A stretch of 64,000 nt of DNA from Janthinobacterium sp. J1-1. GTDB lineage: Bacteria > Pseudomonadota > Gammaproteobacteria > Burkholderiales > Burkholderiaceae_D. The notes under the pieces are model-generated. The model had not been told where the DNA came from and made no database searches. It was given only the letters and a program-made list of their open reading frames with translations. Positions 5,376-7,826 of the stretch are shown in pieces. Where the stretch lies: assembly GCF_030944405.1 (NCBI RefSeq), contig NZ_CP132339.1, positions 1,798,001 to 1,862,000 of the forward strand, in the 5' to 3' direction. How positions within the stretch are numbered: position 1 is the first letter of the stretch; every line of letters begins with the position of its first letter. The position numbers were made by a program, and so were the translations under genes.

Positions 5376-7372
<1,997 letters not shown>

Positions 7373-7460
7373 ACGTGTTCAAGCTAAGTAAAGACAGTGG
7401 TGGGAACGCCAGGCGCGCTTGCTGTGCGGCGATTTGACAGAGTGACAGCGGTGGCGATAA

Positions 7461-7476
7461 CTGTATAAATATACAG
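7461..7476. promoter_or_regulatory. LexA (SOS) box upstream of parE
   Basis: CTGTATAAATATACAG is a perfect CTGT-N8-ACAG operator, the LexA consensus of beta- and gamma-proteobacteria, with AT-rich core and flanks. It lies 89 bases upstream of the parE start and about 257 bases from the first kdp peptide gene. It covers the -10 hexamer of the minus-strand promoter at 7468-7496. Confidence 0.8.
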
Positions 7477-7496
7477 TATATCGCGCCTCGCGTCAC
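7468..7496 (-). promoter_or_regulatory. predicted sigma-70 promoter of the parE operon
   Basis: Read on the minus strand: -35 GTGACG (7496-7491, four of six consensus bases), a 17-base spacer, and -10 TATATT (7473-7468, five of six). The -10 lies inside the LexA box, so bound LexA would block it. On the plus strand, GTGACA (7442-7447), 16 bases and TATAAA (7464-7469) form a possible divergent promoter through the same box; I see no convincing gene directly downstream of it. Confidence 0.55.
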
Positions 7497-7631
7497 TCTG
7501 GGAGCGCATTGCGGCAGGCCGGGCGTCCTTGTGCGGACGCTCGCGCATTCTATCGTGATCGGCGCGCAATGGCGCTACTCCTTGGCAACTATGGTGCGCC
7601 CGTCATGTGACGGCTAGATGGTAGTGCACGA

Positions 7632-7656
7632 TTTTTACAGCTTGTTTACACCGCCC
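7632..7656 (+). promoter_or_regulatory. KdpE-like operator upstream of kdp
   Basis: TTTTTACA, five bases, then TTTACACCGCCCG closely resembles the E. coli KdpE site, which is T-rich and ends in TTTACACCCCGCCCG (recalled from the literature). It lies about 80 bases before the first small kdp ORF. It is the only candidate I see for potassium-responsive control of this operon. Confidence 0.6.
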
Positions 7657-7733
7657 GCTCCAGTCTTTACGAATTTTTTAGACCCTTCTGGCTAAGCTTC
7701 CCTCTATCAAAACAAACCTGAATGAGGGTGGGA

Positions 7734-7826
7734 ATGGATCTCGTATACCTGGGCCTGATGGCCGTCTTTTATGTCGTGGTGGCTGGCTTTGCCGGCGCCT
7801 GTGACAAGCTTGGGGGCGCGCAATGA
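7734..7826 (+). CDS. 30-residue membrane peptide at the head of the kdp operon
   Basis: ATG at 7734, preceded by GAGGGTGGGA as ribosome site. The product ([20 protein letters not shown], then a short tail with Cys and Lys) is one hydrophobic helix. Its stop overlaps the kdpF ATG by four bases (ATGA), so it is co-translated with the Kdp genes. It is not KdpF, which follows directly. It may be a second small subunit or a leader that couples translation. I recall similar short unnamed ORFs before kdpF in other proteobacteria but cannot verify this. Confidence 0.6.

Follow-up and report, generated by a model that had tools for sequence, protein, structure and literature searches.

Genes and promoter region at the parE locus

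The window, that is, the whole 64-kb stretch of Janthinobacterium sp. J1-1 DNA analysed here, carries on its minus strand a line of genes in the order parE-hscC-JDP1-JDP2-parC, with parC just outside it (Table 1). One base is shared at the parE/hscC and at the hscC/JDP1 junctions, JDP1 and JDP2 are 153 bp apart, and 62 bp separate JDP2 from parC. The operon of parE, hscC and a J-protein gene proposed in the original prediction is therefore borne out in its one-base overlaps, and the line extends further than was proposed, to JDP2 and parC. No terminator-like site was found on this strand in either of the gaps that precede JDP2 and parC. Within hscC there is a single promoter-like site of the same orientation, a number near chance, and the 153-bp gap could contain a promoter of its own.

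Table 1. Features of the parE locus (window coordinates, except for parC)
Feature	Position	Strand	Basis or remark
LexA operator (SOS box) CTGTATAAATATACAG	7461-7476		exact CTGT-N8-ACAG; predicted
Promoter P2, -35 GTGACG	7491-7496	minus	consensus scan; predicted
Promoter P2, -10 TATATT, within the box	7468-7473	minus	consensus scan; predicted
Presumed -10 of the older promoter P1, GATAGAAT	7547-7554	minus	kept in 38/38 genus leaders
Segment with P2 and box, missing from boxless genus genomes	~7405-7528	minus	alignment, limits by eye
parE, topoisomerase IV subunit B, 665 aa	5375-7372	minus	TIGR01055 is the best NCBIfam model, below cut-off
hscC, HscC-type Hsp70, 569 aa	3666-5375	minus	HSP70 domain; deletion and insertion as in HscC
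JDP1, membrane-type J-like protein, 567 aa	1963-3666	minus	DnaJ domain below cut-off
JDP2, second J-like protein, 608 aa in full	1-1809	minus	ends ~18 bases left of the window
parC	own genome (G000), C1:1795605-1797845	same as parE	over the TIGR01062 cut-off

The products of these genes could be named with different degrees of certainty. ParE scored 680 bits with TIGR01055 (parE_Gneg), whose cut-off is 723, while the GyrB models gave 562-578 bits, further below theirs, and the presence of parC in the same line argues for the ParE identity. The Hsp70 stayed below the cut-off of the curated DnaK (446 of 648 and 440 of 822 bits) and HscA (420 of 709 bits) models. In alignments with several DnaK chains its residue 80 falls opposite residue 106, which corresponds to a deletion of about 25 residues in the nucleotide domain, and there is a 9-residue insertion near residue 375, in the substrate domain. 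HscC-type proteins have been described as 550-580 residues long, lacking about 25 residues of the nucleotide domain of DnaK and having an insertion in the substrate domain (PMC8215388). The name given here is thus based on size, deletion and insertion and not on a tree, and some non-proteobacterial DnaKs also have the deletion. As regards JDP1 and JDP2, the DnaJ domain was matched with 17.7 and 18.2 bits, respectively, below the Pfam cut-off of 27.8, and in both proteins RPE replaces HPD, so that neither holds a J domain of the HPD type. The J-protein gene originally predicted does show a DnaJ match, but the assignment is weak; both proteins are called J-like only, and a working co-chaperone role is unproven because of the low match and of the RPE motif. 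If the line is read as a unit, the levels of an HscC-type chaperone and of ParE and ParC could increase in parallel.

Upstream of parE, the exact CTGT-N8-ACAG palindrome that had been predicted is present, and CTGTATAAATATACAG is the only match to this pattern in the 64-kb window. Since 0.51 such matches are expected per window by chance (at least one was found in 39 of 100 shuffled sequences), the bare pattern is weak evidence for a LexA site. The predicted promoter, with GTGACG, a 17-base spacer and TATATT (minus strand, 7496-7468), was also recovered, being the sole sigma-70-like match of the consensus scan between 7300 and 7800, where 0.2 are expected. Its candidate -10 falls inside the box, and the consensus match is the same in 32 genomes of the genus. 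The distance to parE, given originally as 89 bases, was measured as 88 from the box to the parE start at 7372.

LexA and the other boxes of the genome

The LexA protein of the genome passes the TIGR00498 cut-off and aligns with LexA repressor chains over residues 6-215, with a nearly identical recognition region. The genome contains 53 CTGT-N8-ACAG sites, compared with 25 for the reversed control pattern, and 50 of the 53 were ranked with a scoring matrix. This matrix is small, built from nine genome sites picked by their neighbour genes; leave-one-out scoring was used for those nine, and the parE site was outside the training set. The parE box scored 28.2, rank 6 among the 50 ranked sites, higher than the box of recA (17.2) and the two of lexA (18.5 and 21.1).

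Strong boxes occur at recA, lexA (two), imuA, dnaE2 and nadK-recN. Among the genes beside boxes, NCBIfam models identified recA, lexA, imuA, an NAD kinase, a uracil-glycosylase-linked radical-SAM gene and a PA0069-family radical-SAM gene, and an error-prone DNA polymerase gene, partial at the end of its locus, stayed below the cut-off. In the case of nadK, the strong box lies before the gene (L014 1501), with recN, named by eye, directly downstream.

That the palindrome before parE is a chance match or the site of another regulator is highly improbable. The expected frequency of the bare pattern and the 25 sites found with the reversed control do leave room for it, but against it stand the full-site score and rank, the invariance of the site within the boxed clade and a recurrence in relatives far above that in shuffled sequences (both described below). 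The chance match was rejected on score, rank and conservation.

Several other sites of the genome deserve mention in their own right. One LexA-like box (L158 1529) precedes a gene with FAN1-type HTH and SAP domains, possibly an SOS-controlled cross-link repair nuclease. Another, strong (28.3), is followed by a 121-aa frame (L147 1551) for which a search of NCBIfam and Pfam returned zero matches, and a third, also strong (24.7; L001 1501), by a frame that by eye resembles a prolyl oligopeptidase. Beside a PAP2-family phosphatase gene there are two LexA-like boxes at a spacing of 19 bases (23.6 and 16.8; L161 1495 and 1514). In addition, CTGT-N8-ACAG palindromes that are GC-richer and nearly identical to one another (CTGTACTAAAGTACAG, CTGTGCGAATGCACAG and similar ones) are found away from SOS genes, for example at L013, L138, L155 and L163; this family possibly represents the sites of another regulator.

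The promoter-box unit within the genus

The leaders of all 38 Janthinobacterium genomes with parE at threshold, out of 40 searched, were read; ParE is 96% identical in Janthinobacterium lividum, J. violaceinigrum and Janthinobacterium sp. SUN073. Of the 38 genomes, 32 have the box; it is absent from G002, G003, G011, G022, G023 and G032. In all 32 boxed genomes the -35, the 17-base spacer and the TATATT in the box are invariant, while the distance to the ATG varies, and the box core occurs in two variants (27 and 5 genomes). Conservation of the upstream region, proposed originally as a check, is thus found in most of the genus and in part of the other Oxalobacteraceae, with six genus genomes as exceptions.

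A further element, GATAGAAT, presumably the -10 of an older promoter, P1, is kept in every one of the 38 leaders; the consensus scan of 7300-7800 missed it, and no clear -35 is visible. Its distance from the ATG is 160-174 bases in genus genomes with the box and 49-51 in those that lack it. Alignment of 10 boxed with 7 boxless-genus or Duganella-type leaders places the difference in a box-bearing segment of some 110-125 bp between parE and GATAGAAT. Just downstream of GATAGAAT there is a hairpin, GCGTCC-GCACAA-GGACGC (minus strand, 7523-7540), invariant in the 10 aligned boxed leaders; in the alignment the boxless leaders are without its second arm, and the hairpin may mark the edge of an inserted segment. 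A copy of the segment from elsewhere in the genome was considered and rejected, as a DNA search with 7385-7560 gave, beyond the self-match, matches of 15-33 bases only, the best with an E value of 0.047.

In a parE nucleotide tree, drawn with no branch supports and holding two genomes twice (L127/L231 and L128/L232), the boxed genomes form one clade with the boxless G002 as sister. Therefore, a single gain of the segment in the genus is the simplest reading of these leaders. The gene hscC appears on that branch as well, and the boxless G003 has an hscC that is more distant (79%). Box and hscC occur together in 30 genus genomes and four have neither (G002, G011, G022 and G032); in G023, also boxless, the downstream genes are unreadable. 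A tie of the box to hscC instead of parE was rejected, because G026, where parC is next to parE, and G006, with a 60-residue hscC remnant, keep the box without a full hscC, and G003 is the one genus genome with the reverse. The locus of G006 (L227) has about 60 residues of hscC between parE and parC and a stop in the parE frame near residue 570, and this state represents recent decay or an assembly fault, since relatives have intact copies as well.

The same leaders bear on the neighbouring, divergent kdp operon (kdpF at 7734). The box does lie between parE and kdp, and either strand of an AT-rich palindrome could carry a -10, but that the box serves kdp, alone or additionally, is very improbable: the second promoter originally predicted to read from the box toward kdp did not appear in the consensus scan of 7300-7800, the box is 257 bases from kdpF, and TTTTTACAGCTTGTTTACA (7632-7650), nearer kdp, is kept in 32/32 boxed and 4/6 boxless genomes, while in other groups the sites are near parE. 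TTTTTACAGCTTGTTTACA itself is a TTTACA-type direct repeat before kdp, possibly a kdp operator.

From the promoter-box arrangement, the box would most likely mark P2 as a second promoter, repressed by LexA, in front of the topoisomerase IV gene line. At the level of sequence there is good support for LexA control of the parE-hscC-J line, given a LexA of the CTGT-N8-ACAG type, the strong boxes at SOS genes and the invariant promoter-box unit; the SOS control originally claimed holds to this extent, and does not cover the six boxless genomes of the genus.

Boxes before parE in other Burkholderiales

Outside the genus, 73 parE leaders of Oxalobacteraceae were scored: 60 hand-picked for genus spread before the leaders were seen, eight further loci, four chosen for an hscC neighbour, and L245 (g37), added after boxes had been seen in that genus. 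Sites over score 17 were found in 19 of the 73 (0.0 in shuffled leaders) and over score 10 in 23 (0.2 in shuffled leaders). The former belong to genus codes g37 (9/11), g4 (2/4), g16 (6/12), g27 (1/1) and g2 (1/1), with none over 17 in the 12 leaders of g9 or in the 32 remaining Oxalobacteraceae leaders. Their distances to the ATG are 24-26, 52, 63, 64, 87, 107-121, 124, 154 and 179-191 bases. The Duganella-type box (L018) aligns to the old leader and not to the Janthinobacterium segment, which argues for at least two origins of the box. The names Duganella for g37 and, below, Comamonadaceae for f48 are inferred from named relatives.

The genes downstream also vary. Relatives of hscC (E value of 1e-120 or better) are present in 63 of 244 genomes of the family. 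In several g37, g4 and g16 genomes a box is accompanied by parC, with no hscC downstream (L018, L130, L132, L236/L167, L240/L179, L241/L219, L243/L181 and L244/L182), while in several genomes of g9, whose 12 leaders have no box over score 17, hscC follows parE, as judged from coordinates; both findings count against tying the box to hscC. The order parE-hscC-J-parC, with seemingly one J-like gene, was seen in g16 (L233, L235) and in g9 (L237, where parE is adjacent by coordinates). Among 80 named loci, a parC match lies within about 2.4 kb downstream of parE in 73 (short and partial in L086), three Janthinobacterium loci have hscC there instead, and four have neither in the available stretch.

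Eighteen of the named loci are Comamonadaceae-like, and 14 of these have a site over score 5 and nine over 10, compared with 0.15 and 0.05 in shuffled sequences; the bins L073 and L084 were put in this group after their sites had been seen, and without both the count over 5 is 13/16. The Rubrivivax, Roseateles and Pelomonas loci, as well as L063, with a leader of 128 bases, were counted in the other group. In an order-wide sample, a site scoring at least 7.9 lies 17-34 bases before the ATG in 8/9 genomes of f48, the family closest to the Variovorax query, and no site over 8 was found in the other 21 loci of that sample or in 20 representatives of 15 further families. Many of the f48 sites read CTGT-N8-CCAG, the form of the E. 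coli dinB and dinI boxes. Ten of the 62 other named loci have sites over 10, namely three Janthinobacterium, one Duganella, two Undibacterium, L029 (a Burkholderiales bin, g27), the beta bins L071 and L072, and Advenella L081 (17.3), which speaks against a neat two-family picture. Weak CTGT-N8-ACAG sites lie about 190-240 bases before parE in some Alcaligenaceae-type loci.

Proposed regulation of the gene line

We consider it likely that P2 is an SOS-inducible promoter of the topoisomerase IV line and the box its LexA operator, with P1 as the basal promoter and induction extending through parC. This reading draws on the score and rank of the box, the presence of LexA, the invariant unit, the boxes in relatives, parC in the line and the precedents in other bacteria. 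In the undamaged cell, P1 would supply basal ParE and ParC, with LexA lying over the -10 of P2. After DNA damage, RecA-driven cleavage of LexA would free P2, and transcription would rise through parE, hscC, JDP1, JDP2 and parC, alongside the SOS-controlled recN. Sister chromosomes may be held together first for repair and then parted with the help of extra decatenation. Thus, the topoisomerase IV genes and the chaperone system would probably both be made on DNA damage. Of this scheme, the site, the LexA of the genome with its other boxes, the invariant unit, the inserted segment and the gene order were observed, and we infer that LexA binds, that P1 is active, that the genes are cotranscribed up to parC, and that sister parting or protein quality after damage benefits.

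The conserved leader motif upstream means that P2 may be minor. LexA might bind and P1 nevertheless make nearly all the parE-parC mRNA, the box being left as a fine-tuning or fading site. We regard this as rather unlikely: although GATAGAAT is common to the whole genus, parE, expected to be essential, needs a basal supply, and the box has been lost or never gained in many relatives, such a site would have to be reconciled with a -35, spacer, -10 and box unchanged throughout the boxed genomes and with boxes that appear again before parE in other genera.

A wider proposal, which is tentative and on balance doubtful, is that topoisomerase IV has been drawn repeatedly into the Burkholderiales SOS regulon by separate boxes that differ in their position before parE, the Janthinobacterium segment and the HscC/J-like cassette between parE and parC having come on the same branch, and that HscC is a true DNA-damage chaperone. 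If so, this could explain the UV sensitivity of E. coli hscC mutants, and topoisomerase IV or the membrane-bound chromosome-segregation machinery would be a possible client of HscC.

Comparison with known systems

To our knowledge, topoisomerase IV lies outside the E. coli SOS scheme. The original view that its SOS control is non-standard has to be restricted, since such control is already known in other phyla and classes (PMC8565304, PMC9380542, PMC3323433). The parCE operon of Bacteroidetes is SOS-controlled, with induction by mitomycin C determined by RT-qPCR (PMC8565304); the topoisomerase IV genes are likewise under a DNA-damage repressor, although this belongs to a different family and has a different motif, and chaperone genes go unmentioned in the sections of that paper on the operon. 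In Streptomyces venezuelae, a LexA site upstream of parE was found with tagged LexA (PMC9380542), the differences being the Gram-positive LexA motif, the description of this ParE as an additional topoisomerase IV subunit and, in the part of the paper concerned, no hscC operon. In the proteobacteria, parE of the alpha-proteobacterium Sinorhizobium meliloti is a LexA target, its SOS control being cited in PMC3323433.

The beta-proteobacterial SOS regulon described in the same review (PMC3323433) resembles that of the present genome in the CTGT-N8-ACAG motif and in the core of lexA, recA and imuA-imuB-dnaE2. Section 7 does not name parE and gives recN without LexA control, whereas here both parE and nadK-recN are boxed; the species of that section include no Oxalobacteraceae, and Figure 5 of the review may tabulate parE for Variovorax. 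In two further papers, ParE occurs only in a reference on toxins (PMC6120978), and neither parE nor topoisomerase appears (PMC7739468). A search by title and abstract start, with subscription journals mostly outside its coverage, found no paper dealing with parE under SOS control in either Oxalobacteraceae or Comamonadaceae; likewise, with the same coverage, it found none on HscC with SOS or on hscC with parE.

In E. coli, SOS-induced RecN holds sister chromatids together against topoisomerase IV, and parE(ts) rescues a recN deletion (PMC5343486). The induction of topoisomerase IV is not an obvious gain, because the enzyme opposes the cohesion kept by RecN (PMC5343486). With both recN and topoisomerase IV boxed in the present genome, a single organism makes it possible to test in which order cohesion and decatenation follow damage, and the relatives that have or lack the box, and have or lack the cassette, offer a ready-made set for comparison.

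Finally, the HscC-DjlC/DjlB system of E. coli is alike in having an HscC-type Hsp70 beside two membrane J-protein genes (PMC8215388). E. coli HscC is said to confer resistance to UV and Cd2+ by a mechanism called unknown in that paper, which does not mention SOS control and does not contain the term SOS; in the present genome, by contrast, parE and parC flank these genes, a LexA box lies upstream of the line, and RPE replaces HPD in the J-like proteins. In this context, a LexA box before an HscC operon would provide a regulatory clue to the role of this chaperone in UV survival.
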